Part shown: in pieces, positions 787 through 22,498 of the stretch
Numbering within the stretch: position 1 is the first letter of the stretch
Layout of the letters: the number at the start of each line of letters is the position of its first letter
NCBI RefSeq assembly: GCF_007827595.1
Contig: NZ_VISR01000003.1
Coordinates: forward strand, 248,001-312,000
Origin: Streptomyces sp. BK340
GTDB taxonomy: Bacteria; Actinomycetota; Actinomycetes; Streptomycetales; Streptomycetaceae
Length of the DNA stretch: 64,000 nucleotides
Reading direction: 5' to 3'
Translations under genes and position numbers: made by a program
The notes under the pieces: generated by a model
The model's database searches: none
What the model saw: the letters and a program-made list of their open reading frames with translations, nothing else
What the model was told of the DNA's origin: nothing

Positions 787-920
787 ATTTCTGCGGCGCT
801 CCGCGCGCACGGAGCGCCGTCCTCGGACAGCCGGGGCCGCCGTGCTCCTCGCCGCCCTGAGCGGACCGGCCGGTCCCGGTCGCTGCGCGGTCGGCCATCC
901 AGAAACGATAGAAAGGTGTT

Positions 921-6470: not shown

Positions 6471-6619
6471 ACATAACCATGTGTCACCGATCGCAACCTG
6501 GGACGAAGAGTGATCATCTTTGGAGACGAAGTGACGGTGGTGTGCAGCATGCGTGGCCGTGCCGGTGAATTGCACGTGTCGGAGCAGTGACCACCCGTTC
6601 CAGCCGAGGAGACAGAGCA

Positions 6620-9600
6620 TTGAGCGCACGGGTGGCCGAGGAACTGACGTTCCAGGTACTGGGGACGGTCCGGGCCCATCGCGGTGAGAGCGCGATACCG
6701 GTCGGTCCTCCCCAGCAGGCTGCCGTGCTCTCGGTCCTGCTGCTGCGTGCCGGGCACTGTGCGTCCTTCGACGAACTCGCCGACGCTCTGTGGGAGAACG
6801 ACCTCCCCAAGTCCGCGGCGACGACGATCCGTACCTATGTGTGGCGGCTGCGCCGGGTACTGGAGGCGGACCCCTCGGTTCCGGAGATTCTGACGTCCGT
6901 GGGCGACGGCTACCGGCTCGACGTGGCGGGCGGCGCGGTCGACGCATGGCACGCCGAGTCGCTGGCCCGGCAGACCGCCCGGCTCAAGAGCGAGGGCCGC
7001 ACCAAGGAGGCCGAGGAAACCGCCGGCCGCGCCCTTGCCCTGTGGAAGGGCACCTCGTTGGCGGGCATCCCCGGCCCCTTCGCCGAACGCAGGCGCGACC
7101 GGCTGGAGGAACTCAAGGTCTCACTGCAGGAAGAGCGCCTCGCGCTTGCCATCCAGCTCCACCGCTTCCAGTTCTCGCTCCCCCAGCTGGCCGAGCTCAC
7201 CGCCGAACATCCGCTGCGCGAACGGCCCTACGCCCTGCTGATGCGCGCCCTGTGCGCGACCGGACGGCAGTCCGAGGCGCTTGCCGTGTACGACCGCGTG
7301 CGCCGCCGCCTCGCCGAGGAGCTCGGCGTCGACCCGGGACGCGAGCTGGCCGTGGAGTACGCACGGATCCTCAACGGCGTGCCCGCAGTCGACGACGTTC
7401 CCGAGGAGGCAACCGGAACCCGGCCGCGTGCCGAGGCCGGTTCCGCTCCGCACGTCACGTCCGACCGGCCACAGGAGCGCGACACCGGGCCGGAGCCGAC
7501 GCCGGCGTCCCGGCCGGCGGCGGACGGACCGCGCTCGGCCTTTCTGCCCGTCCCGGCCCAACTGCCCGCCGACGTACCGTCCTTCGTCGGCCGCGAGGCG
7601 CTCACCCGACAGATGTGCGAGCTGCTCACCGCCGCGGGCCAGCGCGCGCTGACCACGGTGGCCGTCACCGGTATGAGCGGGGTGGGCAAGACGACCCTCG
7701 CCCTGCACGTGGCGCACCGCGTCCGGGACCACTACCCGGACGGCCAGCTCTACGCGGATCTGCGCGGCAGCAGTGTCTCTCCGGCCGATCCGTTCGTCGT
7801 CCTGGGCAGTTTCCTCACCGCGCTCGGTGCACCGGCCGACGAGCTGCCCGAGGAAGTCGAGGACCGGGGGCGGCTGTTCAGGTCCCTGCTCGACCGCCGA
7901 CGGATCCTGGTCGTCCTGGACAACGCACGTGACGAGATGCAGTTGCGTCCTCTGATGCCCGGCAACGCCGGCTGCGCGGTGATCGCCACCAGCCTGCCCC
8001 GGCTGTCCGGGCTGGACGCCACGGCCCACATCAGTGTGGACGTGCTCACCCGGCAGGAGGCGCTGGACCTGCTGGAGGCGGCGGTCGGCTCCGCACGTCT
8101 CGCCGCCGAGCCGGACGCCGCCGGTGCACTGGTCGCCGCATGCGGTCATCTGCCGCTGGCCACGCGGATCGTCGCGGCGCGCCTGGCGGCGCGTCCGGCC
8201 TGGTCCATCGCGTCCCTGGTCCGCAAGCTCGCCGACGAACGCGGTCGCATCGCCCATCTGCGTCTCGGCGATGTCGCCATCGACGCGGCCTTCGAACTGG
8301 GGTACCGGCAATTGTCCGCCGCTCAGGCCCGTGCCTTCCGGCTTCTGGCGCCGGTGACCGAGCCCGACATCGGGCTGCCTGCCGTGGCAGCGGTACTCGA
8401 TCTGGACCAGGACAGCGCCGAGGAGGTCGTGGAGTCCCTGGTGGACGGGTCCATGGTGGTGTCGCCCGCGCCCGGCCGTTACCGCTATCACGAGTTGCTG
8501 GGGGCCTTCGCCCGTGCTCTGCCCGCGCCGCCGGACTCGGAGCCGGCCGCGGCGGCGATCCGTCGCCTGCTCGACTTCCTGCTGGCCAGCGCCTGCTCCG
8601 CGTTCCGCCACGTCGTTCCCGGTGACCCGGTCAGTGACTACCTCGGGCCGGTGCGTTCACCCGGCCTGCGCTTCGCCGACGCGCCCGCGGCCCGTGCCTG
8701 GGTGGCCGAGGAGGCCGACGGAATGCTGACGGCCCTGGCGCACACGGTGCACGATCCGGCCGCGCTGCGCATGGCGGCGGATCTGCTCATCGCGCTCAGC
8801 GCCTTCGGCCAGGAAGTGCCCTTGTACCGGCTGGAGACGGGGGCGCAGGCCCTGGCGGAGGCCGCCGCCGCGCACGGCGACCGGCGGACACTGGGCCGGG
8901 CCCGGTGGCTCAGCGGTGCCCTCGCGCTTCGGGCCGGTGATCCGGCCCGGGCCGGGCGGCTCGCCGCCGAGGCGGTGGCGGCCTGCCGTGACACGGGTGA
9001 CAAGGTCATCCTGCGCCAGGCCCTCAACGACCTCGGGCTGGCGGCACAGTTCCTCGGCCGCCACGAGGACGCGCTCGCCCACTTAGAGGCGTCGCTGGAA
9101 CTGGCCGAGGAACTCGGCCACCGTTCCGGGAAGGTGGCGACCACCCTGAACGCGGCGCTCACCCGGATCCGCAGCGGACAGGCCGCCGCCGCGGTCGCCC
9201 CGTGCGAGGAGGTGCTGACGGATCTGCGGTCCCGGGGTGACGACGCCGGCATGACCGCCTACGCGCTCTATGTGCTCGGGCTGGCCCAGCACGCTCAGCA
9301 CCGGTGGGAGGCGGCAGCCGGGCGTTTCGGGGAGTGTCTCGCCGTGTGCCGTGACGCGGGCATCCGGGATCGCGCCGCGCATGCGGGCTATCGGCTCGCG
9401 GACTCGCTGAGCCGTCTGGGTGACCTGGACGGCGCCCTCCGGCACGCGGAGGAGGCGGTCACGATGTTGCAGGATGCCGGCGGGGACCGCGACCTGGCCG
9501 CGGCCCGGCTGGTGCTCGGCCGGCTGCTGACCGACCGTGGTGACGTCGACCGGGGCCGGTCACAGCTGGAGGAGGCCCACGAGACGTTCACCCGGCTGGG

Positions 9601-9679
9601 TCTGCCCGAGGCGCGGCAGACCGCCGACGCGCTCGCGGCACTGGGGGATTCCGTGACATCCAGCAGGCCTCGCGGGTGA
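6620..9679 (+). CDS. AfsR-like SARP transcriptional activator (wHTH-BTAD-NB-ARC-TPR)
   Basis: A 1019-residue regulator. Residues about 5-95 are an OmpR-type winged helix (FQVLGTVRAHRGE, SAATTIRTYVWRLRRVLEAD, SVGDGYRLDV). A BTAD follows to about 245 (RPYALLMRALCATGRQSEALA, ELGVDPGREL). The NB-ARC ATPase has its Walker A GMSGVGKTTL near 350, and the C-terminal third is TPR-like (RQALNDLGLAAQFLGRHEDA). I chose the TTG at 6620 because GAGGAGA lies eight bases before it; the GTG at 6587 has its purine motif only two bases away. SARPs bind heptameric direct repeats with an 11-bp period. Such repeats occur in the intergenic region at 10017-10080, so it is probably the activator of the adjacent peptide cluster. 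Confidence 0.9.
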   Translation: MSARVAEELTFQVLGTVRAHRGESAIPVGPPQQAAVLSVLLLRAGHCASFDELADALWENDLPKSAATTIRTYVWRLRRVLEADPSVPEILTSVGDGYRLDVAGGAVDAWHAESLARQTARLKSEGRTKEAEETAGRALALWKGTSLAGIPGPFAERRRDRLEELKVSLQEERLALAIQLHRFQFSLPQLAELTAEHPLRERPYALLMRALCATGRQSEALAVYDRVRRRLAEELGVDPGRELAVEYARILNGVPAVDDVPEEATGTRPRAEAGSAPHVTSDRPQERDTGPEPTPASRPAADGPRSAFLPVPAQLPADVPSFVGREALTRQMCELLTAAGQRALTTVAVTGMSGVGKTTLALHVAHRVRDHYPDGQLYADLRGSSVSPADPFVVLGSFLTALGAPADELPEEVEDRGRLFRSLLDRRRILVVLDNARDEMQLRPLMPGNAGCAVIATSLPRLSGLDATAHISVDVLTRQEALDLLEAAVGSARLAAEPDAAGALVAACGHLPLATRIVAARLAARPAWSIASLVRKLADERGRIAHLRLGDVAIDAAFELGYRQLSAAQARAFRLLAPVTEPDIGLPAVAAVLDLDQDSAEEVVESLVDGSMVVSPAPGRYRYHELLGAFARALPAPPDSEPAAAAIRRLLDFLLASACSAFRHVVPGDPVSDYLGPVRSPGLRFADAPAARAWVAEEADGMLTALAHTVHDPAALRMAADLLIALSAFGQEVPLYRLETGAQALAEAAAAHGDRRTLGRARWLSGALALRAGDPARAGRLAAEAVAACRDTGDKVILRQALNDLGLAAQFLGRHEDALAHLEASLELAEELGHRSGKVATTLNAALTRIRSGQAAAAVAPCEEVLTDLRSRGDDAGMTAYALYVLGLAQHAQHRWEAAAGRFGECLAVCRDAGIRDRAAHAGYRLADSLSRLGDLDGALRHAEEAVTMLQDAGGDRDLAAARLVLGRLLTDRGDVDRGRSQLEEAHETFTRLGLPEARQTADALAALGDSVTSSRPRG

Positions 9680-9757: not shown

Positions 9758-9949
9758 TCAGCTGTTGACCGTGCAGGTACTGCAGCTGGAGCCCGTGCTG
9801 TTCCAGGCGGCGACGTGGTGGCCGGTACGGGCCCCGGCGTCGGCCCCCGCGCTCGCGGCGGTGCCGATCATGCCGGTCAGAAGGCCGACGAGCCCGAGGG
9901 CGGCGGCGTACTGCCACCGGGTCGGCTTCCTCTTCTTCGTGCGCATCAT
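9758..9949 (-). CDS. Small secreted peptide with C-terminal CxxC motif
   Basis: A 63-residue peptide starting at two tandem ATGs (9949 and 9946). It has a basic N-terminus (MMRTKKRKPTRW), a hydrophobic core (AAALGLVGLLTGMIG) and a signal-peptidase-like AASA-GADA site. The predicted mature peptide is about 28 residues and ends SSCSTCTVNS. No domain is recognised. It is convergent with the SARP gene and divergent from the 23-residue peptide gene. The divergent intergenic region has matching TGTTGAC repeats pointing each way, which suggests co-regulation with the cluster. The ribosome binding site is weak (GAGAG eleven bases upstream). It could be a second product precursor, a target or immunity factor, or an unrelated small exported protein. 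Confidence 0.6.
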   Translation of the reverse strand: MMRTKKRKPTRWQYAAALGLVGLLTGMIGTAASAGADAGARTGHHVAAWNSTGSSCSTCTVNS

Positions 9950-10016: not shown

Positions 10017-10096
10017 CGTCAACAACTGATCAACGATTGATCGAAGTCGGTCACCGACCGGCTGTCGACGGCCTGTTGACACGTGCTGCCTAGCGT
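10017..10096. promoter_or_regulatory. Divergent promoter region with SARP-type heptad repeats
   Basis: Rightward: TGTCGAC (10063-10069) and TGTTGAC (10074-10080), exactly 11 bp apart, with a weaker CACCGAC one period further upstream (10052-10058). A -10-like TAGCGT follows at 10091-10096, ten bases after the last repeat. Leftward (minus strand): CGTTGAT (10035-10029) and TGTTGAC (10024-10018), again with an 11-bp period. This is the spacing described for SARP binding sites. GATCAA-CGA-TTGATC (10028-10042) is also palindromic, so a different regulator could bind there. Confidence 0.55.
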
Positions 10097-10153: not shown

Positions 10154-10225
10154 ATGACTCGCAACCACGCCGTCGGCATGCGTCCCCGTCTGGACAAGGT
10201 GAAGGTCAAGGCCGCCAAGGCCTGA
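10154..10225 (+). CDS. 23-residue peptide, candidate RiPP precursor or peptide scaffold
   Basis: A short gene with an excellent ribosome binding site (AAGGAGA five bases before ATG). The peptide starts MTRNHAVGM, continues RPRLDK and ends KVKVKAAKA. It is lysine-, valine- and alanine-rich at its C-terminus and has no Cys, Ser or aromatic residue; its only Thr is residue 2, so lanthionine or azole chemistry on the C-terminus is unlikely. It is the first gene after the SARP-type promoter and is followed 15 bases later by a strong hairpin, then by an M16 peptidase gene. Such a layout (tiny highly translated gene, attenuator, modifying enzymes, ABC exporter) is typical of peptide natural-product precursors. 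I do not recognise the peptide family. Confidence 0.65.
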   Translation: MTRNHAVGMRPRLDKVKVKAAKA

Positions 10226-10240
10226 GGCCCCGCATGATGC

Positions 10241-10276
10241 GCGGCTGCCGGGGAGTTCCGTCTCCCCGGCAGCCGC
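10241..10276 (+). terminator. Strong hairpin (attenuator) after the precursor gene
   Basis: Perfect 15-bp stem: GCGGCTGCCGGGGAG (10241-10255), six-base loop TTCCGT, CTCCCCGGCAGCCGC (10262-10276). It begins 15 bases after the peptide stop codon. A partial terminator here would give more precursor message than enzyme message, as in many RiPP operons; it could also stabilise the short transcript. Confidence 0.75.
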
Positions 10277-10358
10277 CGGTGCGCCGCCGCCCCTCCCCCC
10301 TCGTTCATCCGCACACCGCGTCGGCCCGCCGCCGCGTACGGCCCCGAGAGAGTGGCCC

Positions 10359-11600
10359 TTGACTGACTACGACCTCACCACCCGTCCTCCGGGGCCGGCA
10401 ACCGCGTCCGTCCCCCTGCTGACCGTGGTCGACGAACGGCTGAAAACCACCAGCATCTGCTGGGCGCTGGCCACCGGCTCCCGCGACGACCCGGAGGGCC
10501 GCGGCGGGATCGCCCACCTCCTGGAACACCTGGTGATGTCCTGCCCTCTCGGCACCGGCGGGACGCACCTGTCGTTCAGCGAGTACGTGGAGCGCCGCGG
10601 CGGGCAGGCCAACGCCCAGACGGGCCTCGAAGTCATGCTGTACTACGCGCAGGTGCACGCCGACGACGCCGAGGACGTCGCCGCCGCTCTGCTGCGCGCC
10701 GTGCTCGAACCGGAGCTCGGCGACAGCACCCTGGACAGCGAACGAACCGTGGTACTGCAGGAATTGGCGGCAGCGGCCGCCGACCCCTCGGACGCCGTCC
10801 AGGACGCGGTCCTCGCCCAGCTCTTTCCCGGACATCCGCTGGGCCGCCCGGTCGGCGGCGAGCCGGACCAGCTGGGCAGGGTGACCACGAGCGACCTGGA
10901 GACCGTCCACCGCGAACGGTTCGTCCGGGCACCGGGTGTCCTGGTCGTCGTGGGACCGAGCGTCCCGCAGGTGCTGACCCGGGCCGCCGCCCGAGCGACC
11001 GGCCGGCCGGTGGCCCAGGCGCCGCACGTCCCCCTGGAGCCCGTCGGCGCCGGCGATCCGCTGCCCGATCCCGCCACCCACGACTTCACCTGGCTCTGCT
11101 TCGGCGCCCGCTCCCCCAGGGCCGGAGTCCCGGGGCGCGCCGCCCACGGTGTCCTCGCCCACCTTCTCGGCTCCAGTCCCTCGTCCCTGCTGTACCGCAC
11201 CCTGCGCAGCGAGCACGGGCTGTCCTACTCGTTCCACGCGTGGGACCGCGGTTACCGGGAGGCGGGTGCCTGGCGGCTGCTGATCGGCGCGGAGGCGTCC
11301 GCCGCCGGCCGGGTACAGGTCGTCGTGGACGAGTTGCTGGCCGCCGTCGCCGAACAGGGCCCGTCACCCGACGACTTCGACGCCGCTTTGCGGCAGGCGG
11401 AGATGAGCCTCGTCCTGGAGTCGGAGACACCCCTGGAGTACGCCAAGCTGATCGCCGAGCGCAGCGTCTCGGCCGGACGTCCCTGGAGCCTCGAGGAGGA
11501 GATCACCGAGCTGCGCCGGGTGAGCGCCGAGGACGTCCGGCGGGCCGCCGCCGACGTCCGGCGGGATCTCCTGCTGACCGTCCGGTCGGTGGCCGCATGA
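10359..11600 (+). CDS. M16-family zinc metallopeptidase
   Basis: A 413-residue protein from the TTG at 10359 (GAGAG eight bases upstream). It has the inverted zinc motif HLLEH (residues 53-57) and the third ligand region SERTVVLQEL about 75 residues later, followed by the M16 second-half features (YRTLRSEHGLSYSFHAW). With one complete HxxEH it is the active type rather than the inactive partner. M16 peptidases cleave short peptides held in a closed chamber and act in PQQ and other peptide-derived pathways. As the first enzyme gene after the 23-residue peptide it is the obvious candidate to trim or release the product. It has no signal peptide, so cytoplasmic. Its stop overlaps the next start (ATGATG). 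Confidence 0.88.
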   Translation: MTDYDLTTRPPGPATASVPLLTVVDERLKTTSICWALATGSRDDPEGRGGIAHLLEHLVMSCPLGTGGTHLSFSEYVERRGGQANAQTGLEVMLYYAQVHADDAEDVAAALLRAVLEPELGDSTLDSERTVVLQELAAAAADPSDAVQDAVLAQLFPGHPLGRPVGGEPDQLGRVTTSDLETVHRERFVRAPGVLVVVGPSVPQVLTRAAARATGRPVAQAPHVPLEPVGAGDPLPDPATHDFTWLCFGARSPRAGVPGRAAHGVLAHLLGSSPSSLLYRTLRSEHGLSYSFHAWDRGYREAGAWRLLIGAEASAAGRVQVVVDELLAAVAEQGPSPDDFDAALRQAEMSLVLESETPLEYAKLIAERSVSAGRPWSLEEEITELRRVSAEDVRRAAADVRRDLLLTVRSVAA

Positions 11601-12421
11601 TGTACGCCGTCGAAAGCTATCTGGAGGCCGCGCGCGACGCCGGTCTGCTGCGCACCGTGTCCGGCCTGCCCGTTGTGGCGGGCGACTCCACCGATCCCCT
11701 GTCGGACGCCCGGCACCTGCTGGTGGAGTACGCGGACCCCGGGCTGCTGTCGGACTCCGGCACCGCCCCCTCCCTGTGGCGGGCCCTGCTCGCCGGCCAC
11801 CCCGGCGCCTCGGTCGTCGTCGTACGCGCCGGTGCGCAGGTCCGGCTGCCGCGACCGTGGCACCGGGAGCTCACCTACGTACGGCTGCCGGCGGACGCCG
11901 ACGTCCCGGTCGACCCGGCCGGCCCCCGTGTCACGCCGGCCGAGGAGGAACACCGGCCGCTGCTCGCGGACTGGCTGGTACGTGCCATCCTGCACGCCGC
12001 GCGCGAGCAGGGCCGGCCGGCTGATCCCGGGGCCGCGACCGCCGAGGCCGACGCCCTGCTCGACACTCCGTCCCGGCACTCCCTGCTGGTGTGGGAGCAC
12101 GGTGTGCCCGTGGGGCACGCGACCGTCATCGGCCGGGCCTGGGACGAGATCTCGGCACGGTCCCACATGGAACTGGTGGACGTACTCGTCGAACCCGACG
12201 CGGACGCCTCCGCGGGCCGCGCCGCCCTGGTCGCCGCAGTCGCGCGTCTCGCCCGGACGGCACGGACGCCGTTGGTCGGGCACGTGGTGCACGGCCGCGA
12301 CGGCAACGGCGACCGGGTCGTCGAAAGCCTTTGTGCGCAGGGCTGGACGGTGGACCACCGCTACTGGAGGGCCCGTACCGAGGACCTCGCCGTGACACTG
12401 AAGGGAGCGGGGCAGGCATGA
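11597..12421 (+). CDS. GNAT-fold acyltransferase-like protein
   Basis: A 274-residue protein with ATG at 11597 overlapping the M16 stop. The C-terminal half looks like a GNAT domain: SLLVWEHGVPVGHATV (central strands), then MELVDVLVEPDADASAGRAAL (where the acyl-CoA loop would be) and VVESLCAQGWTVDHRYW (closing strand). The N-terminal 110 residues are divergent. The pyrophosphate-binding Q/RxxGxG/A loop is poorly conserved, so activity is uncertain; it could be a GNAT-like binding protein. Position inside the operon suggests a role in modifying the peptide or a pathway intermediate. Confidence 0.55.
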   Translation: MMYAVESYLEAARDAGLLRTVSGLPVVAGDSTDPLSDARHLLVEYADPGLLSDSGTAPSLWRALLAGHPGASVVVVRAGAQVRLPRPWHRELTYVRLPADADVPVDPAGPRVTPAEEEHRPLLADWLVRAILHAAREQGRPADPGAATAEADALLDTPSRHSLLVWEHGVPVGHATVIGRAWDEISARSHMELVDVLVEPDADASAGRAALVAAVARLARTARTPLVGHVVHGRDGNGDRVVESLCAQGWTVDHRYWRARTEDLAVTLKGAGQA

Positions 12422-13485
12422 CCGTCACACGACTCGACCTCGCACTGCTGCACAAGCTGCTGCAGGTCCCGGAGCACGAGGGCGCGTACCGTCTGGTGCG
12501 CCGCGCCCAGCAGACCTCGGGCACGCTCTCCCAGTTGGTCGTCTCGCTGGCCGTCGCGGAAGGCGTCGAGGCCGGCAGCGGCAGCAGGGATCTGCTGGCC
12601 AGGGCGGCCTCCCGCGCGGCCCGGTACGCCGAGCTGCGTACGGCGCTGGACGGCTGCACCGGGGTGCGTACCGTCAAGGGGCCCTCCCTCGCCGCCCATT
12701 ACCCGCCCGGCGTCCGGCGCCCGGTCGGTGACCTCGACCTCGTCGCGTCGGACGAGGAGCAGCTGTGGCGGGCCGCGGCCGTCCTGTGCTCGCTGGGCGG
12801 CGAGCCGGCGGAGTTGTCGCTGTTCACCGCCGACGGACGCCTGCACGTCATGCTCGCCGTGCTGTGGCCCTCCCCCGACGCGTTGCTGGAGGAGGAGATC
12901 CGGGTGGAGCTGTGCACAGCCGCGTTCTCCGGCGACTTCGCCACCGTGCCCGTCCGTCCGGACCTGCCCGCCGAGCAGTCTCTCGCCGACCTGCTGTCGG
13001 TGGCGGAAGAGCGCTTCCAGCGGGAGTTCCACGCCAAGGACGCGGTCGACCTGCTGATGCTGCTCGACAGCGGTGCGCCTGCGGCGACGGCAGCGGCGGC
13101 GGCCGGCCACCGGCTGGCGCCCGAACTGCTGGAACTGGTCGATCTGCTGAGCGACGCCGTCGTACACCCGGCAGCCGGGGAGCTTCGGCAGGCCCTGGCC
13201 GCCGGCGCGGCCGAGGAGTCCGCTCGCCGTGCCGCCGCGGCCCGGCCGGTACAGCAACAGCAGCGAACGGTGGCGGCACGGCTGGAAGCGGGGCAGCCGG
13301 TCTGGGGCATGCCTCTGACCCGTACGGCACACCCCGGGCAGCGGTGCCTCCTCGAACACCGGTCCGCGCTGTCCCTGGCCCGTACCCCGGTCGGTGACTT
13401 CCTGCTGGTGGCGGACGAAGTCGTGGATCCGGACGTGCATGCCGCGGCCCTCGCCGCGGCGACGGGCGAGGAGGCCGGCGCGTGA
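12418..13485 (+). CDS. Nucleotidyltransferase-fold protein (PF14907-like)
   Basis: A 355-residue protein with ATG at 12418 inside the previous stop (ATGA). The signature VKGPSLAAHYPPGVRRPVGD followed by LDLV is the KG...R.x.D(i/l)DL motif of the uncharacterised nucleotidyltransferase family NTP_transf_5. The paired aspartates D-L-D are the expected metal ligands. The middle part (REFHAKDAVDLLMLLDSG) also fits the family. Members occur in some lasso-peptide clusters, where their role is unsettled. The C-terminal region from about 290 (PVWGMPLTRTAHPG) is not recognised. It presumably transfers a nucleotidyl group to a peptide or small-molecule substrate, but this is inference. Confidence 0.7.
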   Translation: MTVTRLDLALLHKLLQVPEHEGAYRLVRRAQQTSGTLSQLVVSLAVAEGVEAGSGSRDLLARAASRAARYAELRTALDGCTGVRTVKGPSLAAHYPPGVRRPVGDLDLVASDEEQLWRAAAVLCSLGGEPAELSLFTADGRLHVMLAVLWPSPDALLEEEIRVELCTAAFSGDFATVPVRPDLPAEQSLADLLSVAEERFQREFHAKDAVDLLMLLDSGAPAATAAAAAGHRLAPELLELVDLLSDAVVHPAAGELRQALAAGAAEESARRAAAARPVQQQQRTVAARLEAGQPVWGMPLTRTAHPGQRCLLEHRSALSLARTPVGDFLLVADEVVDPDVHAAALAAATGEEAGA

Positions 13486-14453
13486 CGAGCCCGGACGTAC
13501 CCGCGATCGAAGTGAGCGCGCTCACCCGCGAGTTCGGCTCCCGACGCCGGTCCGGCGCGACGGTCTCCGCGCTGCGCGGCGTCGACCTGACGGTCCGCAC
13601 CGGCGAGGTGCACGGCCTGCTCGGGCCGAACGGCGCCGGGAAGACGACCCTGTGCAAGATCCTCACCACCGTCCTGCTGCCCAGCGGCGGAACTGCCCGG
13701 GTGTGCGGGCACGACGTGGCCGCGGCGCCGCGGGCCGTCAAGCCGCTGATCGGCATCGTCTTCGGCGGCGACCGGGGCCTGTACGGCCGGATCACCCCCC
13801 GCCAGAACCTCACCCTGTGGGGCGCGCTCTACGGCCTGCACGGCCGTGAACTCGCCCGCCGGGTCGACGGACTGCTGGAACGGGTGGGCCTGAGCGAGCG
13901 GGCGGGAGACCGTGTCGACGGGTTCTCCCGGGGCATGAAGCAGCGCCTCCACCTCGCCCGCGGACTGGTCAGCGACCCCCGGGTCCTCATCCTCGACGAA
14001 CCCACCACCGGTATGGACCCGCTGGCCGCCTTCGACTTCCGCACGCTGGTGCACGAGCTGCGCGCGGAGGGCCGTACCGTGCTCATCACCACGCACGACA
14101 TGGCGGAGGCCGAAGCCGTCTGCGACCAGGTCACGCTGATCGACCGCGGTCAGGTGCTGGTGACCGACCGGCCGGAGGTACTGGCCCGGCAGATGTCCGC
14201 CTACGAGTGCGTGACGGCGGCCGGGGTGCCGGCCTCCGTCGCCGAGGAGCTGAAGCAGCTCACCGGCGTCTCCTCGGTCGACCGGACGCCCGACGGGCGG
14301 ATCACCGTGGAGATCTCGGCCGCCGAGACCACCTCCGAGGTGCTGCGCAGGCTGGTCGCGGCCGGCGTCACCTCGCTGGCCACCGTCAGCCCCGGCCTGG
14401 CCGAGGTCTACCGGCACCTGGTGCGGGACCGCGGAATGCGGGTGGGCCGGTGA
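13482..14453 (+). CDS. ABC transporter ATP-binding protein (DrrA-like exporter class)
   Basis: A 323-residue cytoplasmic ATPase from the GTG at 13482 (GTGA overlap with the previous stop). Walker A GPNGAGKTT (near 48), Q-loop region GIVFGGDRGL, signature FSRGMKQRL, Walker B VLILDEPTTGMDP and switch His (TTHDMAE) are all intact. The C-terminal 80-residue extension is typical of drug-export ATPases paired with ABC-2 permeases. With the two permeases that follow it forms an exporter for the cluster product or for self-protection. Confidence 0.93.
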   Translation: MTSPDVPAIEVSALTREFGSRRRSGATVSALRGVDLTVRTGEVHGLLGPNGAGKTTLCKILTTVLLPSGGTARVCGHDVAAAPRAVKPLIGIVFGGDRGLYGRITPRQNLTLWGALYGLHGRELARRVDGLLERVGLSERAGDRVDGFSRGMKQRLHLARGLVSDPRVLILDEPTTGMDPLAAFDFRTLVHELRAEGRTVLITTHDMAEAEAVCDQVTLIDRGQVLVTDRPEVLARQMSAYECVTAAGVPASVAEELKQLTGVSSVDRTPDGRITVEISAAETTSEVLRRLVAAGVTSLATVSPGLAEVYRHLVRDRGMRVGR

Positions 14454-15223
14454 CTCCCGCCCTGTTCTGGCAGGTGTTCCGCCTGCAGGTGCTGATGACC
14501 CTGCGGACCCCGGACACCCTCCACGTCTTCGTGACGGCGCCGCTGTACACCTGCGTCTTCCTCGCCATCACCGAACACGCCGACCGGCGCGACCTGGCCG
14601 GATTCGCCGTGCTGGCACCGGTGCTGATGTCGCTGTGGTCGATGGCGCTGATGGCGGGTGGAGAGCTGATCGGCCACGAGCGCGAGCGGGGCACGCTGGA
14701 GGCCGTGGTGGCCACACCGGCGCGCTACTCGGCGGTGGTCACGGCCCGGATCGCCGCGGTGACGGTGCTGAGCACGCTGAGCCTGGCCGAGGCCTGGCTC
14801 GTCGCCTGGGCCGGCTTCGGCCTGGTGGTGACGATCGCCCACCCGCTGCTCTTCGTGGTCGGCGTCCTGCTCACCGCGGCCGCCATGGCGGGCACCGCGA
14901 GCTGTGTGTCGGCCCTGTTCGTGCTGGCCCCCTCCGCCCGGATCCTGCAGAACACACTGAGTTTTCCCTTCTTCCTGCTCGGCGGGGTCCTGGTGCCCGT
15001 GAGCTACCTCCCGGACTGGCTGCGCCCGGCCAGCAAGGCCGTGTTCCTGACCTGGAGCGCGGACGTCCTGCGGGACGCCGTGAGTCCCGGTCCGGCCCGG
15101 GACACCACGGGCGGCCTGCTGGCCGTGCTGCTGCTGGGGCTGGCCGGCTACGCCGCCGGAACGCTGCTGATAGACCGAATTCTGCGCAGGGTCCGGGTCA
15201 CCGGCACCCTGGCCCGGATGTGA
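14450..15223 (+). CDS. ABC-2 type transporter permease, first subunit
   Basis: A 257-residue membrane protein; the GTG at 14450 overlaps the ATPase stop by four bases. About six hydrophobic segments are visible (for example LHVFVTAPLYTCVFLAI, FAVLAPVLMSLWSMALMAGG, and LLAVLLLGLAGYAAGTLL), with the ABC-2 motif GHERERGTLEAVVATPARY in a cytoplasmic loop. It probably pairs with the next gene as a heterodimeric pore. Confidence 0.88.
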   Translation: MTPALFWQVFRLQVLMTLRTPDTLHVFVTAPLYTCVFLAITEHADRRDLAGFAVLAPVLMSLWSMALMAGGELIGHERERGTLEAVVATPARYSAVVTARIAAVTVLSTLSLAEAWLVAWAGFGLVVTIAHPLLFVVGVLLTAAAMAGTASCVSALFVLAPSARILQNTLSFPFFLLGGVLVPVSYLPDWLRPASKAVFLTWSADVLRDAVSPGPARDTTGGLLAVLLLGLAGYAAGTLLIDRILRRVRVTGTLARM

Positions 15224-15229
15224 GGCCGC

Positions 15230-16045
15230 ATGGACATCACCACCTCCCGTGTGACCGGCGTGGGCCGGGTGGTCCGCGCGGCCGCGGCCAATGCCTTCGC
15301 CGACTTCCGCGCGACCTACACCTGGTACAGCTGGACGTTCGGCTGGCTGGGCCGGATGCTGTGCCAGGTCACCTTCTTCGCTCTGCTCGGCTCCTATCTG
15401 CACTCGCCCGGGCAGACCCGCTATCTCGTCCTCGGCAACTCGGTGATGACCTGCGTCATCGAGGCCATGACGGTGGTGGTGTCGACCAGCTGGGAGCGCG
15501 GGCACGGCACGCTGGCGCTGCTGGCCGCCGCGCCCAGCGAGATGGGGTGGGTCTTCCTCGGCCGCAGCCTGCAGTGGCCCGTGAGCGGCTGTGCGACCTC
15601 GCTCGTCGCGCTGGTGCTGCTGGATCCGCTGTTCGGCGTGCGGTTCGCGGCGGCACAGCTTCCGGTACTGGTGGCGCTGGTGCTGCTGACCGCGTTCAGC
15701 ACGTACTGCTTCGGGCTGTTCCTCGGCGCTTTCGTGCTCGCCGCGCCGGCCGTCCGCAACATCGTGTTCAACACCGCCTTCCTCGTCACCATGGCGATCA
15801 GCGGCGTGCAGGTGCCGACCGGTTTCTGGCCGTTCGGCGTGCGCCTGCTGGCCGGTGCGCTGCCGGCCACGCACGGCGTGGCGGCGGTGCGCGCGCTCGC
15901 CGACGGGGCCGGCGCGGCCGCCGTCGCACGGCCGGCGGCCTGGGCCGCGCTCGCGGGCGCGCTGTGGCTGGCCGCCGCGCTGACCGCGTTCCGTGTCTCG
16001 GCACAGCTGGTCCGCCGCCACGACGGCTACGAGTTCACCGCATGA
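15230..16045 (+). CDS. ABC-2 type transporter permease, second subunit
   Basis: A 271-residue membrane protein, ATG at 15230, six bases after the previous stop. Six hydrophobic stretches are visible, including TYTWYSWTFGWLGRMLCQVT near the N-terminus and NIVFNTAFLVTMAISGVQVP. The loop SWERGHGTLALLAAAPSE matches the ABC-2 (E)xGTLE..L..P motif. It has the same fold as the preceding gene but low sequence similarity, so the exporter is probably heterodimeric. Confidence 0.88.
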   Translation: MDITTSRVTGVGRVVRAAAANAFADFRATYTWYSWTFGWLGRMLCQVTFFALLGSYLHSPGQTRYLVLGNSVMTCVIEAMTVVVSTSWERGHGTLALLAAAPSEMGWVFLGRSLQWPVSGCATSLVALVLLDPLFGVRFAAAQLPVLVALVLLTAFSTYCFGLFLGAFVLAAPAVRNIVFNTAFLVTMAISGVQVPTGFWPFGVRLLAGALPATHGVAAVRALADGAGAAAVARPAAWAALAGALWLAAALTAFRVSAQLVRRHDGYEFTA

Positions 16046-16077
16046 GCGACGAACCGTTCGAACAGAAAGGTCATCCC

Positions 16078-16899
16078 ATGTCCCACCCGGCGGCGCCGGA
16101 GGAGCTGAGCGTCCTGGTCGTCAAGCCGGACGGCTACCGCTGCCCCCAGGTGCGCGAGTACGTCGACGAACTCCTCCAGGCCTCGCGGCTGACCGTCGAG
16201 CTGCGCTACGAGGTCTGTCTGGAGGACGAGGACGTCATGGACACCTGGCCCAAGTTCGCCGGGCCCAAGTACCCGATCACCGCCGAGTTGCTGAGGCTGT
16301 ACCTGACCAGCGGACCGTGCGAGGTCATCGTGGTGCACGGGCCGGACGTGGTGCGCCGTTGCGCGCACCTGCGCGGCGAGGTGCGGGCACGGTTCGGTAC
16401 CTCGGCGTTCGCCAACTGCGTGCACACCCCGACCGAGCCCCAGGAGATCGGCCCCAACGTCGAGAAGTACCTGGTCAGTCTGCCGACCGGGCAGCCGTTC
16501 ACACGGCACCGCGACGACGGCGTCACGGAGGGGATCAGCGGCCGGCTGGCCGCCCTGCCGCGTTCCGTGCTGCTCGCGGAGGCGCGGGCCTTCTGGGGGA
16601 CCGCGCAGAAGGAGGGCTGGCGCGCTGCCTGGCGCTCCCGTCCGGAAGGCGGCGGCTTCGGTGCCTGTCTGCTGCCCGGTGATCCGCACTCCGTGGACCA
16701 CGGCATGTCCCTGATCGCCGACGCCCTGCCCGGACTGACGGTGCGCGAGGTGATCTCCGCCTATGTGGAGGCCGAGGTGGAGGGCTGGTCCTGCCTTCTG
16801 TCCGGTACGCGCGCCGAGGCCCGGGAACTGGCCCGCCTGCTGGCGGCGCAAGGCCTGTACGCCGAGGTCCGGGCTCTGACCCCCGCCCGGCGGAACTGA
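16078..16899 (+). CDS. NDK-like protein with extra C-terminal domain
   Basis: A 273-residue protein. The first half resembles nucleoside diphosphate kinase: LVVKPDGY at the N-terminus, and SAFANCVHTPTEPQE near 110-125, matching the NDK N-x-x-H-(G)-S-D-S-x-E active-site loop with the phosphoryl-accepting His retained (about 117) but the GSDS changed to TPTE. Residues after about 160 are not NDK; the end (RAEARELARLLAAQGLYAEV) recalls an L7/L12-type C-terminal fold. I chose the ATG at 16078, with GAAAGG seven bases upstream. The in-frame ATG at 16042 overlaps the permease stop like other genes of this operon and is a fair alternative. Possible roles: peptide or metabolite phosphotransfer, or a nucleotide-binding adaptor. 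Confidence 0.68.
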   Translation: MSHPAAPEELSVLVVKPDGYRCPQVREYVDELLQASRLTVELRYEVCLEDEDVMDTWPKFAGPKYPITAELLRLYLTSGPCEVIVVHGPDVVRRCAHLRGEVRARFGTSAFANCVHTPTEPQEIGPNVEKYLVSLPTGQPFTRHRDDGVTEGISGRLAALPRSVLLAEARAFWGTAQKEGWRAAWRSRPEGGGFGACLLPGDPHSVDHGMSLIADALPGLTVREVISAYVEAEVEGWSCLLSGTRAEARELARLLAAQGLYAEVRALTPARRN

Positions 16900-16979
16900 A
16901 CCGCAGCGCCGGTCTCACCCCTTGCCGTCGCGCGGCCCGCGCGCCGCCCGCCTCCCCCTTCCCCGTCGAAGGAGCGTCA

Positions 16980-18307
<1,328 letters not shown>

Positions 18308-18308
<1 letters not shown>

Positions 18309-19567
18309 TGTCTGACCGGCCGGCGATTCCGACGCCGCGACAGCCCGCCGCCGACAGCGACATCGCGTTCGTCGGAGGCGGCTTCCGCACCACCACGTTC
18401 CTCTCCTCCGCCCCCGGCCTGCTGCGCCGGCGGATCCGCGTCTACGAGCGCGGCACCACCGTGGGCCCCGGCGGCTTCGCCCGGTACAGGATCACCACCA
18501 CCTCCATCGGCTCCCGCTTCTTCAAGCACCTGGACCCGAGCGGCCCGTTCGCGTCCCTGGCCCGCTCCCGCGCGCTGGCCGACGTCGTCCACGCCGAGCA
18601 GCCGGTGGCCATGGAGCGGCTGGCCACCGCCCTCACCGCACTCGGAGGCACGCTCGCGGACGCCCTCGGACCGGAGGGGGTGCGCCTGGGCAGCGCGGTC
18701 GTCGCGGTGCACGCCGACAGCCGGCAGCGGCGGGTGGTGCTGCAACTCTCCGACGGCAGCACGGAGTCGGCACGGCACGTGGTGCTCGCCACCGGGCGCA
18801 CCGAACGGCCGCATCCGGAGCTGGCCCGCTGGCGGTCGAAGGTGCTGGCGTCGGGAACCGTGATCTCCGTCGGCCACCGCCAGGACGTCAAGGACAGGCT
18901 CCTCGCGGCCGCCGGCCGCCCGGTCGTCGTCGCCGGCTGCTCGCACAGCGCGATGTCCGCCCTGCAGACCCTGCTCGACGTGCGGGCGGAACTGCGCTCC
19001 GAGCACCCCGGCGCGCCGCTGCCCGCCCTCCGGGTCGTCAGGCGCGGTCCGGCCCGGCTCATGTACGACAGCGCGGATCTCGCCCGGCTCGGTCAGGTGC
19101 CGGGCCGGGAGCGCCCGTTCGACCCCGTCGCCGACGTGTGCCCGGCCACCGGCATCGTCTACCGGGACTCGGGGCTGCGTCACCAGTCACGTGCCCTGTA
19201 CTGCGCCCTCTGGGCGGGCGAGGTGCCCGGCGCCGCGCTCGTGGACGCGCCCGTACTCGCCGACGCTGCCGACGGCTTCGACGAGGCCGCACTGATCGTC
19301 CAGGCGCTCGGCTACCACGGCCGGGCGCCGGACATCCACGTGGACGGCGTGCCGGCGCGCCCCGGGGACTCCCCCGCCCGGCTGCTCGCCGACGACGACG
19401 GAGCGCTGCTGCTGAGCGGGACCGCGCACCCCCTGCTGTCCGTGCTGCGGGTGGAACCCACCCCGCTCGACCGCAGGGACGACACCGCCTACGCGAGCGA
19501 CCTGTACGAGCGGCTGGCGAGCCGCCTGGACCGACTGGTGGCACCGGTGGCGGAGGTGGGCGCATGA
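18308..19567 (+). CDS. FAD/NAD(P)-binding oxidoreductase
   Basis: A 419-residue flavoprotein-like enzyme whose ATG shares its first base with the previous stop (TGATG). It starts with a dinucleotide-binding motif (IAFVGGGFRTTTFL, VYERGTTVGPGGF) and has a second one in the middle (VVVAGCSHSAMSAL), with the family's ATG-like motif VVLATGRTERPHPE. The layout resembles two-Rossmann FAD/NAD(P) proteins of the L-lysine/L-ornithine N-hydroxylase and FAD-NAD-binding (PF13454) groups. The substrate is unknown. Coupling to the aminotransferase gene implies that they act on the same intermediate. Confidence 0.72.
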
Positions 19568-20895
19568 GCGGCGGACCGGTTCCGGACGCGCTGGCCGCGC
19601 TGATCGATGAGCGGCGAGGCGGCGTCCCGGCACGCCCGTACGTGGTCGGCGTCACCGGAGTCGACACCGCGGGCAAGTCGCGGATGGCCGAACGGCTGCG
19701 GGTCGCGCTGCAGGCCAGGGGCGTGCCCGCCGCGGTGGTGCACGTCGACGACTTCCACCGCCCGCGGGCCGAACGCTACGACCCCGCGCTGCCGGAGCCG
19801 CGCCAGTACTACGAGCGCAGCATCGACTTCACCCGGCTGGCCGCCGAAGTCCTGGCCCCCCTGCGGGCCGAGGGGAGGCTGCACCGCACCGTGGCGCGCC
19901 TGGACCTGCCCACGGACGAGTGGACCACGATCCGCTACGACATCGATCCCGGCGCTGTGGTGATCCTGGAGGGCGTCTTCCTGTACCGCGCCGAGACCAG
20001 GCCCCATGTCGACCTCTTCGTGCACCTGCACGTGGACGAGGACACGGTGCTGGAACGGGCCCGGTCGCGTGATCTGCCCGCCCAGGGCGAAGAGGTGATG
20101 CGGAAGTACCACGACAAGTACCTGCCCGCCCAGCGGGCCTACCTCGGCGAGCACGCACCGCGGACGCTCGCGGACGTGATCCTCGACAACTCCCGCTGGC
20201 AGGAGCCCGTCGTACTGTCCTGGCCCGGCGGGCCGCACGCCGTGCTGTTCGACCTGTGGAAGACACTGGTGCCGCTGCCGGACGAGCTGAAACGGCGCAC
20301 GTTCGAGGCCACCGCCGTGGAGCTCGGTCAGCGGTCCGAGGATCTCGCGGACGCGTGGAAACGCACCAGGGAGGTGCGTGAGACCAGGCCGTTCGCCGAC
20401 TACCTGGACTGGCTGCGCGACCATCTGGCGGGCACCTGGTCGCCTGCCCAGGCGGCCCGGGCGGCGGCCACCCGCCGCCGGCTGCACGGCGAGGCCTTCG
20501 CCACCCCGCTGCCGGGCGCCGTCCAGGCCGTGACGGTGGCGAGGCAGTTGGGCCTGCGCACGGCCCTGGTCTCCAACTGCACCTCCGACGTGCGGGAGAT
20601 GGTGCGCGGGTCGGCCTTCGCCGACCGCTTCGACGAACTGCTGCTCTCCGCCGAAGCCGGCGTCATGAAACCGGATCCGGAGCTGTTCCGCACAGCCGCC
20701 GACCGGCTCGGTGTTCCGCCGTCGGCCTGTGTCTTCGTCGGTGACGGCACCGACGGGGAGCTCGCCGGTGCCGCCGCCGCGGGCATGACCGCCGTCCTGG
20801 TGGAGTGCGGTGAGCCGCGCTCGTGGGCCGGGCCCAGGATCGCCGCCCTGCCCGACCTGACCGACCTGCTCGTGACCGTCCTCGCCAAGGGGTGA
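19564..20895 (+). CDS. P-loop kinase (uridine-kinase-like) fused to HAD-type phosphatase
   Basis: A 443-residue fusion with ATG at 19564 overlapping the previous stop (ATGA). Residues about 25-215 are a uridine kinase-like domain: Walker A GVTGVDTAGKSRMA, VVHVDDFHRPRAERYD, VVILEGVFLYRAE, and a lid with ARSRDLPAQGEE. Residues about 225-440 are a HAD domain: motif I is altered (AVLFDLWKTL, where the second Asp of DxD is Trp), motif II is ALVSNCTS, the Lys is in GVMKPDPELF, and motif IV is CVFVGDGTDGELAGA. The change at the general acid position suggests the HAD half may be a phosphonatase-like or degenerate enzyme. A kinase and HAD in one chain may phosphorylate and then process the same substrate. 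Confidence 0.82.
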   Translation: MSGGPVPDALAALIDERRGGVPARPYVVGVTGVDTAGKSRMAERLRVALQARGVPAAVVHVDDFHRPRAERYDPALPEPRQYYERSIDFTRLAAEVLAPLRAEGRLHRTVARLDLPTDEWTTIRYDIDPGAVVILEGVFLYRAETRPHVDLFVHLHVDEDTVLERARSRDLPAQGEEVMRKYHDKYLPAQRAYLGEHAPRTLADVILDNSRWQEPVVLSWPGGPHAVLFDLWKTLVPLPDELKRRTFEATAVELGQRSEDLADAWKRTREVRETRPFADYLDWLRDHLAGTWSPAQAARAAATRRRLHGEAFATPLPGAVQAVTVARQLGLRTALVSNCTSDVREMVRGSAFADRFDELLLSAEAGVMKPDPELFRTAADRLGVPPSACVFVGDGTDGELAGAAAAGMTAVLVECGEPRSWAGPRIAALPDLTDLLVTVLAKG

Positions 20896-20905
20896 CCCCG
20901 CTCCC

Positions 20906-22498
20906 ATGCACATCCATCACAAGGTCCTGCTCGTTCCCATGCAGCCGACGCCCAACGGCCGGCTGCACATCGGCCACGGCGGCGGCACCTATCTCCGGGC
21001 CGACGTCATCGCCCGGGCGCTGCGTGCCCAGGGCCACGAGGTCGCGGTCATCACCGGCAGCGACGCCTACGAGGACTGGGTGGTGGCCGCCGCCCACCGC
21101 GAGGGCCGCTCCCCGGAGGAGACCTACCGCGACCACCACGCGGGCATCGCGCGCGACCTCGCCCGCCTGTCCATCGGCTTGGACGTGTGGATCGATCCGG
21201 CGGGTCCCGAGCACCGCGACGCCTACCGGCGGCTGCACGAGGACGTCCTGACCCGGCTGCGGACCACCGGCGCCGCCCGCCCGGAGAGGGAGCGGATCCC
21301 CTACGCGCAGGACACGGGCCGGCCGCTCGTCGGCCCGTGGATCGCGGGCGACTGCCCGCACTGCGAACGCCCGTGCGGGGGCAGCACCTGCACCTACTGC
21401 GGCGAGTACTTCGTCCCCGAGCAGATCCTGCGGGCCCGGTCCCGGCTGACGGACAGCCCGGTCGAGTGGCGCACGGAGGAGAACTGGTTCGCGACGGCCG
21501 CCGATCCACAGGCCGTCGCCGACCGGCACCGGGCGGCCGGACTGCGGCCCGTGTTCCTCGCTCCGCTGCTGCGTGCCCTGGACAAGCACGGCGGCCGTGT
21601 CCGGCTGACCGGTCAGGGCGACTGGGGCATCCGGAGCGGGACTCTGCCTGCGGGGAAGGTCATCAGCAACGGCTACTTCCTCTACAGCGTCTACTGCGGT
21701 GAGGTGCACCAGACACTGACCGGTGCCGCCGTGAACCCGTTCGCCCCGGGCAGCGGCGTCACGACGGTCGGCCTGTTCGGCAGTGACAACTCCACTCCTG
21801 GGCTGCTCGTCCCCGACGTGCTGGCACAGGGTTCGCAGGGCACGCTGAGCCCCTTCGACGCCACGGTCGTCAACGGCATGCTGCACTTCGAGGGACACAA
21901 GTGCTCCACCAGCAAGCGGCACGGCATCTGGCTCTCCGAGCTGCTGGAGGGCACTTCCGTGACCTCCGACGAGCTGCGCTACGCCCTGCTCCACGCGCCG
22001 CTCGACCACGGCCCCGCCGAGACGTCGACCCAGGCGCTGACCGGGCACGTCAACGCCCTGCGTGACTGGGAGGCCAAGGTACTGCGCCCGGCCCTCGACC
22101 GGCTGCGCCGGCAGTCCGGTCCGGTGCGGCGGGCGGACCTGGCGCTCAAGGCCGCGGCCGACCAGTACGCGCTGCTCACGCCTTACTCACCCGATCTGAC
22201 GGCCGCCGTGGGGGCGTTCGACGACTGGGCGCGCACTCCGCTCGACGCCGACGCGGAGTGGCTGGTCGGCGTGGCGCTGCTCGGCCGTCCGCTGCTGCCG
22301 GACCTGGCGGGCCTGGTCTGGGCACAGCTCGGCTTCACCGGCGAACCCGCGATGGGACAGGCGGAACGCCTCGAACCGCTCCCGCCGCAGTTCCCGGCCG
22401 CTGCTCCCGCACCGGCCCACGGGCCACTGGACGCGGCGGCACTGCAACCGTACGTCCACCTCCAGGAGCCGGACGGCGGGCCCGGCGCGGGCGGCTGA
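20906..22498 (+). CDS. Class I aminoacyl-tRNA synthetase, methionyl-tRNA-synthetase paralogue
   Basis: A 530-residue enzyme with all MetRS hallmarks. HIGH is at residues 21-24 (PNGRLHIGHGGG), a zinc knuckle near 150-167 is CPHCERPCGGSTCTYC, the KMSKS equivalent is KCSTSKRHGIW near 331, and a short C-terminal anticodon-domain-like helix bundle ends LAGLVWAQLGFTGEP. It is the last gene of the cluster. It may supply an aminoacyl-tRNA or aminoacyl-adenylate for a pathway reaction, or be a drug-resistant MetRS that protects the producer; both are known uses of extra synthetases in antibiotic clusters. Active-site motifs are intact, so catalysis is plausible; amino-acid specificity is not provable here. 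Confidence 0.87.
   Translation: MHIHHKVLLVPMQPTPNGRLHIGHGGGTYLRADVIARALRAQGHEVAVITGSDAYEDWVVAAAHREGRSPEETYRDHHAGIARDLARLSIGLDVWIDPAGPEHRDAYRRLHEDVLTRLRTTGAARPERERIPYAQDTGRPLVGPWIAGDCPHCERPCGGSTCTYCGEYFVPEQILRARSRLTDSPVEWRTEENWFATAADPQAVADRHRAAGLRPVFLAPLLRALDKHGGRVRLTGQGDWGIRSGTLPAGKVISNGYFLYSVYCGEVHQTLTGAAVNPFAPGSGVTTVGLFGSDNSTPGLLVPDVLAQGSQGTLSPFDATVVNGMLHFEGHKCSTSKRHGIWLSELLEGTSVTSDELRYALLHAPLDHGPAETSTQALTGHVNALRDWEAKVLRPALDRLRRQSGPVRRADLALKAAADQYALLTPYSPDLTAAVGAFDDWARTPLDADAEWLVGVALLGRPLLPDLAGLVWAQLGFTGEPAMGQAERLEPLPPQFPAAAPAPAHGPLDAAALQPYVHLQEPDGGPGAGG

Follow-up and report, generated by a model that had tools for sequence, protein, structure and literature searches.

The window analysed here is the whole 64,000-nucleotide stretch of Streptomyces sp. 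BK340 (contig NZ_VISR01000003.1, positions 248,001 to 312,000; host genome 10.3 Mb), and its positions 10154-22498 hold an operon whose first gene encodes a short peptide. The twelve co-directional genes listed in a preliminary description of this DNA are all there, confirmed as plus strand open reading frames (ORFs), and the overlaps of 1-4 bases which it reported at most junctions turned out to hold, by coordinates, for 7 of the 11. We propose that the peptide is made by the ribosome as a carrier for a small molecule, which cargo enzymes would build on it before an M16 peptidase would cut it off and an ABC transporter would export it, and we give this reading a probability of about 0.5. The earlier proposal that a ribosomal peptide with peptidase and exporter lies at the core of an unfamiliar cluster is supported by a family of related peptides found at 26 loci.

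The peptide gene (10154..10225; this and all features given below for the operon are on the plus strand) encodes 23 amino acids, MTRNHAVGMRPRLDKVKVKAAKA, and is assigned as a putative carrier-type peptide by its motif family, Shine-Dalgarno sequence and codon pattern. Just 3' of its stop codon the sequence contains a 15-bp perfect hairpin (10241..10276), a probable partial terminator. Then follow an M16 peptidase with a TTG start and an intact HLLEH site (10359..11600; Pfam and alignment), a protein with a predicted tandem-GNAT fold, called C here (11597..12421), and a PF14907-like nucleotidyltransferase, called D, with an intact KG...R...GDLDL motif (12418..13485; sub-cut-off Pfam score, motif and predicted fold). 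The exporter consists of an ABC transporter ATPase (13482..14453) and an ABC-2 permease (14450..15223), both assigned by Pfam, and a second ABC-2 permease (15230..16045) which scores below the Pfam cut-offs. The remaining genes encode an NDK-like protein with invariant NDK-site Lys, Asn and His and a C-terminal extension (16042..16899; sub-cut-off Pfam score and alignment), a class III pyridoxal-phosphate (PLP) enzyme, either aminotransferase or amino-acid racemase (16980..18308; Pfam, NCBIfam and PDB matches), an FAD/NAD(P) enzyme which is distant kin of Lys/Orn N-hydroxylases by profile alignment (18308..19567), a uridine-kinase-like P-loop kinase fused to a HAD phosphatase (19564..20895; Pfam and NCBIfam) and a methionyl-tRNA synthetase (MetRS)-like enzyme of the hydrazine-synthetase type without cupin, which is predicted to activate an amino acid (20906..22498; Pfam tRNA-synt_1g and identity comparison). 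Compared with other genomes, the peptide, M16, C and the nucleotidyltransferase, usually with the ABC exporter, form a chassis which stands beside varying tailoring genes, and C is its hallmark.

Most of the family names in the preliminary description agree with Pfam, namely M16, ABC, class III aminotransferase, PRK-type kinase plus HAD, and tRNA-synt_1g. Three of them scored under the Pfam cut-off (PF14907, 24.8 vs 31.2 bits; NDK, 20.7 vs 27; GNAT, 14.6 vs 20.7), and these are backed by conserved catalytic residues or predicted folds. D keeps its catalytic DxD and has the predicted fold of the MNT/Pol-beta nucleotidyltransferase superfamily, with a small C-terminal beta part; Foldseek alone gave no match for D at E <= 0.001. 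In the NDK-like protein K28, N125 and H128 are invariant in 13 aligned rows, and a plasmid search with this protein gave no match.

The peptide family is recognised by H-x4-RPRLDK, followed by a tail that is short and mostly basic. The window peptide had earlier been described as lysine/alanine-rich; it is a real ORF, but conservation lies in H-x4-RPRLDK and not in the K/A-rich tail. The 26 loci give 24 distinct sequences, which are 19-23 residues long and all have the H and PRL-x-K. RPRLDK occurs in 22 of the loci, and the tail of 5-8 residues has a net charge of +1 to +3 in 25 of 26. For the peptide ORF in 11 loci, we summarized the differences by codon position, which amount to 0.379 of comparisons at the third, 0.197 at the first and 0.162 at the second position. 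Because the window ORF has a Shine-Dalgarno sequence, variation at third codon positions is about double that at the first two, and the motif recurs in 25 further genomes, the 23-aa ORF is judged to be more than chance and to encode a conserved, probably translated peptide. The mean pairwise identity among 10 representatives (9 for D and the ABC ATPase) is 0.716 for the peptide core, 0.560 for the ABC ATPase, 0.461 for M16, 0.409 for D and 0.380 for C, which makes the core the most conserved of these.

The loci were gathered in two sets, with genes called by a simple GC-frame script which misplaced some starts. The first set came from a search for D in 394 genomes of the family; 37 of these matched at E <= 1e-12, and M16, C and D co-occur in part of the D-matching genomes. 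A search with H-x4-(R/S)PRL-x-K found the peptide in 14 loci with M16 and C, in exactly one place each, and in none of the remaining loci (58 loci and 1,113,119 bases in all, one locus having been added after the motif search). For the second set, an alignment of C was searched in 392 genomes of the genus, where 15 matched at E <= 1e-15 and 12 of these were new; as predicted in writing beforehand, all 12 carry the peptide and an intact HxxEH. Five matches of a looser pattern (L145 6727, L147 16766, L151 13271, L152 6836 and L155 10726) were judged to be chance, and L116, L092, L020 (same cluster as L053) and L005/L118 (same as L002) were left out of the counts. Several chassis loci belong to another genus of the same family, called g14 here and perhaps Kitasatospora. 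When C was searched for in 396 genomes of the phylum, full-length matches occurred only in G000 and in G048, which is of the window's genus, together with two weak partial ones, and 22 relatives of C were found among predicted proteins, nearly all from Streptomyces where named and one from Umezawaea.

Some loci reached by D were excluded from the family. In type X loci (L094, L096-L113; n=19), where the D homologue mostly lies by SARP, DDAH-like, MFS and nonribosomal peptide synthetase (NRPS) genes (Pfam names taken from L113 only), the motif was not found, no M16 was called and DxD is changed, the last in 5 of 5 rows aligned; these D homologues are possible pseudo-enzymes. L114 and L115 were also excluded, with weak D matches and no M16 called.

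A short ORF followed by a hairpin could also be a regulatory leader, in which ribosome stalling controls read-through of the hairpin into an export or resistance operon. A strong hairpin does follow the peptide stop codon in 14 of 14 loci, with the best-folding window beginning 0-16 nt after the stop, and the GNAT, nucleotidyltransferase and exporter genes look like a resistance set. However, of 265 called gene ends in the same loci, 67 have a hairpin at least as strong as the weakest of the 14 and 11 have one at least as strong as their median, and the hairpins alone do not discriminate between the leader model and the others. Pairing of the ORF with a hairpin arm as antiterminator was found in none of 10 loci (z from -1.3 to +0.8), and the integrity of the M16 site tracks the peptide. 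The arrangement in L146 contradicts the leader model directly: the peptide (882-941, minus strand) is a separate unit with its own hairpin and T-run terminator, and since it lies on the strand opposite to M16, 6.4 kb away, it cannot be the leader of the M16 operon. By this arrangement and the negative antiterminator test the leader or attenuator was ruled out as principal explanation, and we regard it as extremely improbable.

The partnership of peptide and M16 was then summarized for the examined loci. The peptide is present in 26 of 27 loci which have C and an M16 with intact site; in the 27th, L116, M16 is intact, no peptide occurs in its 5202 bases, and the contig stops 145 bases upstream. 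The check proposed in the preliminary description, whether a short peptide gene always precedes the M16 gene, spoke for the peptide, which lies directly upstream in 25 of 26 loci and is placed apart only in L146. The HxxEH site is intact at all 26 peptide loci (for L053, L091 and L095, truncated gene calls were read further upstream), and it is broken in three examined loci without a working peptide, to HLLER in L018, HLLAR in L019 and HMLDH in L122. In L018 (1356-3478) and L019 (1205-3327) the M16 with the lost site is followed by an NDK-like gene, and the peptide, C and D were not found nearby. L122 (9655-14969, contig C20) is a second, decayed chassis copy in the window's own genome, with the peptide start codon lost, C broken and a 725-aa protein that starts like the 729-aa protein of L146. 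The integrity of M16 follows the peptide in the examined loci, which is a correlation only.

Such a partnership would also be expected if the peptide were an unmodified accessory protein that binds or activates M16, C or D, as MbtH does for NRPS enzymes, and the conserved sequence and the independence from the operon in L146 would fit this as well. The size of 19-23 residues with a basic tail is rather that of a peptidase substrate, and an activator does not agree well with the loss of the M16 catalytic site in the three loci without a working peptide, so that we consider an accessory protein rather unlikely.

Several known systems resemble the carrier-peptide pathway proposed here. In pearlins (TglA, TmoA, AmmA), as presented in the available parts of PMC9303977 and PMC10885120, a ribosomal peptide serves as scaffold for a small molecule and is handled by a dedicated protease; TglA has 50 residues. 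The likeness lies in the putative carrier peptide and its presumed dedicated protease, whereas the peptides here have 19-23 residues, the protease is M16 instead of M50 or TldD/E, and the core motif is common to unlike clusters. No Pfam match to a PEARL (LanB-like) enzyme was found among the twelve operon genes, only selected genes being scanned outside the operon. In the pyrroloquinoline quinone (PQQ) pathway, PqqA has about 23 residues and is accompanied by the M16 peptidases PqqF/PqqG. The window resembles it in having a peptide of about 23 residues with an M16, which matches PqqF weakly (56.8 bits vs a cut-off of 320), but the peptide motif is different, tandem GNAT and nucleotidyltransferase are present instead, and PqqC, PqqD and PqqE had no match among the genes scanned.

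M16 proteases are also described as maturing class III and V lanthipeptides (PMC10885120, PMC7794033, both in part), and class V clusters in Streptomyces are reported to combine an M16 peptidase with an ABC transporter (PMC7794033). Unlike lanthipeptides, all 26 peptides lack Cys, which thioether rings need together with Ser/Thr, and the operon has no match to a lanthionine enzyme. Among lasso peptides, the available text of PMC9266682 describes PsmN, a protein annotated as nucleotidyltransferase that modifies a ribosomal peptide; it is likened to D by description, not by sequence, and no lasso machinery was matched in the window operon. Neither the H-x4-RPRLDK peptide nor the gene set was described in the literature searched, where an earlier listing among the 42 candidate ribosomally synthesized and post-translationally modified peptide (RiPP) families of PMC7794033, available in part, is possible.

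To see which enzymes accompany the chassis, neighbouring genes at the other loci were selectively scanned with Pfam. L016 contains a P450, two dCTP-deaminase-like proteins, a class II aminoacyl-tRNA synthetase domain, two methyltransferases, a PLP decarboxylase and a P-loop kinase-like protein; L085 contains TruD and two 2-oxoglutarate (2OG) oxygenases, along with a P-loop protein of sub-cut-off score; and L086 contains two thymidylate-kinase-like proteins (one just above and one well above cut-off), a NUDIX protein, a phosphatase and two glycosyltransferases. SPASM and B12-type radical SAM proteins, a histidine phosphatase, an NDK-like protein and a carbamoyltransferase occur in L020/L053. 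Sugar-type enzymes, a glycosyltransferase and AdoMet synthetase were found in L089, one glycosyltransferase, two APH and an S-adenosylhomocysteine (SAH) hydrolase NAD domain in L093, and SAH hydrolase with a class III enzyme in L092, while L088/L090 have an adjoining YcaO-TfuA set (scanned in L088). About half of the ten chassis types in the first set have nucleotide- or nucleoside-type genes. Because of these neighbours at other chassis loci, we infer that a cargo of the nucleoside kind is the likeliest class.

The enzyme logic resembles that of pseudouridimycin and related nucleoside clusters, which, according to the available part of PMC8724604, use a cryptic kinase/phosphatase, oxidation, transamination and amide ligation, and the TruD-like protein in L085 is a further likeness. 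The clusters here differ in having a ribosomal peptide and M16, neither of which is mentioned in that part of PMC8724604. Tentatively, and at somewhat below even odds, the peptide with its nucleotidyltransferase, tandem-GNAT transferase and M16 might be a general plug-in carrier, which Streptomyces and related genera would combine with many unrelated cassettes and on which nucleoside-type antibiotics would be built while tethered, in the manner of an acyl carrier protein.

The same neighbours bear on the main rival, in which the peptide would remain part of the product. M16 would then trim, and the cell export, a Trojan-horse conjugate of peptide and nucleotide or nucleoside that resembles microcin C. 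A constant, mostly basic peptide, a nucleotidyltransferase with intact DxD, an exporter and nucleotide-type neighbours would fit such a conjugate, and we see it as a minority possibility of some weight. One core motif amid wholly different tailoring genes, however, suits a handle better than a part of the product, and an MccB-type (ThiF) protein was unmatched among the genes scanned.

Besides, three observations were made at these loci. L020 (4520-11950) and L021 (3581-11486) share the radical-SAM pair, the histidine-phosphatase protein, the NDK-like protein, which in L021 has a CYTH-like N-terminus by eye, and the carbamoyltransferase, and no chassis was seen near L021. In L088 (5662-5805, plus strand) and L090 (13541-13678, minus strand), ORFs of 47 and 45 residues ending in SILEGVITPW lie by YcaO and TfuA, just 5' of the RNH peptide, and are candidate thioamide RiPP precursors. 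In L146 (1429-7290, plus strand), a 448-aa protein that by eye resembles an SAH hydrolase precedes a class III PLP enzyme and the 729-aa protein.

For the regulation of the window operon, a spacing scan of the 14 peptide loci was carried out. Upstream of the peptide gene lies a putative SARP-type promoter, TCGACGG-4-TTGACAC-8-TAGCGT (10065..10096), called so by the SARP heptamer rule, and it is preceded by a SARP/AfsR-like regulator with BTAD, NB-ARC and TPR domains (6587..9679; Pfam), which is likely the regulator of this promoter. The full spacing (heptamer-4-heptamer-8-TAGCGT) is found in the window, L002 and L015, a weak form in L016, and the promoter was not found at the other 10 of the 14. 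It could be proposed from this neighbourhood that the peptide acts as an exported signal which M16 would process and the SARP/TPR regulator would detect. The adjoining SARP with NB-ARC and TPR and the promoter would suit a signal, yet the SARP family occurs near only 5 of the 13 chassis loci listed, the full-spacing promoter is limited to 3 of 14, and C and D would be left unexplained, which makes a signal decidedly unlikely.

The preliminary description had taken the twelve genes as one signature set. What was found instead is a widespread chassis and a cargo cassette which also exists without it, and a fixed twelve-gene signature is ruled out, since chassis and cassette occur apart (L042/L043). 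The cassette in L042/L043, which lack the chassis, comprises the class III PLP enzyme (78-80% identity to the window), the flavoenzyme, that is the FAD/NAD(P) enzyme (56-58%), kinase and HAD (55-60% together), here as separate genes, and the MetRS-like enzyme (59-60%). Because it is also found there without the chassis, the cassette probably makes a building block used by two different assembly systems. In L042 (4148-16826) and L043 (7545-16894), both from the second genus g14, the cassette is accompanied by an MFS exporter, a VanX-like dipeptidase and four ATP-grasp ligases, among which is a Ddl-like enzyme, these extra genes having been scanned in L042 only; the product may be a D-Ala-type peptide antibiotic.

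The MetRS-like enzyme had been described as a MetRS paralogue that might charge tRNA or confer resistance. It keeps HIGH, KxSTS and the zinc knuckle, and aminoacyl-tRNA-dependent ligases are among the proteins that share the tandem-GNAT fold with C, as would be expected of a resistance copy or of an enzyme that supplies aminoacyl-tRNA to the pathway. Its identity, however, is about 20% to this strain's housekeeping MetRS, with a shorter C-terminal part, vs 41-44% to the proteins of L044-L046 (the L044 one lying by an N-hydroxylase) and 32-34% to the MetRS-like proteins of L047, L048, L051 and L052. Against TIGR00398 the window enzyme scores 69.3 bits in one scan and 87.8 in another (cut-off 336.35), and the best NCBIfam MetRS model gives it 346.5 vs 551. 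It groups with enzymes of the hydrazine-synthetase type, apart from housekeeping MetRS; by this comparison a tRNA-charging or resistant MetRS was ruled out, and resistance or supply is left as a very improbable role.

The MetRS-like/cupin hydrazine synthetases (Spb40, Tri28, PyrN) are believed to adenylate an amino acid and transfer it to an N-hydroxylated amine, as stated in the available part of PMC11705231. The window resembles them in placing a MetRS-like activation gene beside a flavoenzyme. It differs in that Pfam matched no cupin among the operon proteins, that its flavoenzyme has no more than a distant likeness to N-hydroxylases, and that it has a kinase-HAD and a class III PLP enzyme besides. 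In the scanned neighbourhoods, those of L044 and L048, Lys/Orn N-hydroxylases lie near the MetRS-like genes, in L048 together with a cupin. The window flavoenzyme is related to these hydroxylases by profile alignment only (probability 85.5%, E 5.7e-6) and had one weak match in a PDB sequence search. For the class III PLP enzyme, the two solved chains matched at E <= 1e-60 are racemases and the best NCBIfam names, below cut-off, are aminotransferases, so that it may be either. In L044, one of L044-L046, a PF10014 2OG-Fe dioxygenase stands where a cupin would be expected, beside the MetRS-like protein and the Lys/Orn N-hydroxylase; L044-L046 possibly encode a cupin-free hydrazine synthetase.

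In the carrier-peptide reading, the parts of the window would work together as follows. The SARP would turn on the peptide promoter, and the hairpin would leave the peptide abundant and the enzymes scarcer. The PLP enzyme, flavoenzyme, kinase-HAD and MetRS-like enzyme would build the cargo made here, an activated amino acid being coupled to the amine, hydroxylamine or hydroxyl group that the first three enzymes provide; the kinase-HAD fusion would add a phosphate and remove it later. D and C would load the cargo onto the peptide or activate it there, and M16 would free it for export by the ABC transporter. The phosphorylation, nucleotidylation and oxidation of the peptide that the preliminary description envisaged are further modifications which might take place.

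Several points weigh against this reading. The evidence comes from genes and sequences, and modified residues, an attached cargo and a product are predictions; that C and D are enzymes acting on the peptide is something we infer, and no known RiPP recognition element (RRE) peptide-binding domain was identified. No nucleoside-type genes were seen among the selected neighbours scanned in L088/L090, L091 and L095. L018 and L019 are near relatives, so the three M16 losses amount to roughly two separate events, and since no search started from M16, relatives of it that have an intact site but no peptide may exist outside the loci examined. Besides, M16 is missing from L092, where C, D and the exporter are present, and the variant peptide of this locus, MPLITMRPRLVKVKPKSNR, is without the H motif (by eye); the exporter is missing from the analysed stretch in L086 and L149, and L149 also shows no D.

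Very few pathways with carrier peptides for small molecules are known, the pearlins and, more loosely, PQQ. If the carrier reading is true, one core motif in about ten kinds of cluster would amount to modular tethering outside the logic of polyketide synthases and NRPS, and H-x4-RPRLDK beside an M16 gene would be a genome-mining hook for clusters without recognised biosynthetic signature.

Outside the operon, the first two genes downstream encode VWA/CoxE-like and AAA proteins on the opposite strand (Pfam) and look unrelated to it. Divergent from the peptide gene lies a 63-codon ORF (window 9758-9949, minus strand), for which the Pfam scan gave no match and which shows, by eye, a basic start, a hydrophobic stretch and a C-terminal CSTCTVNS.

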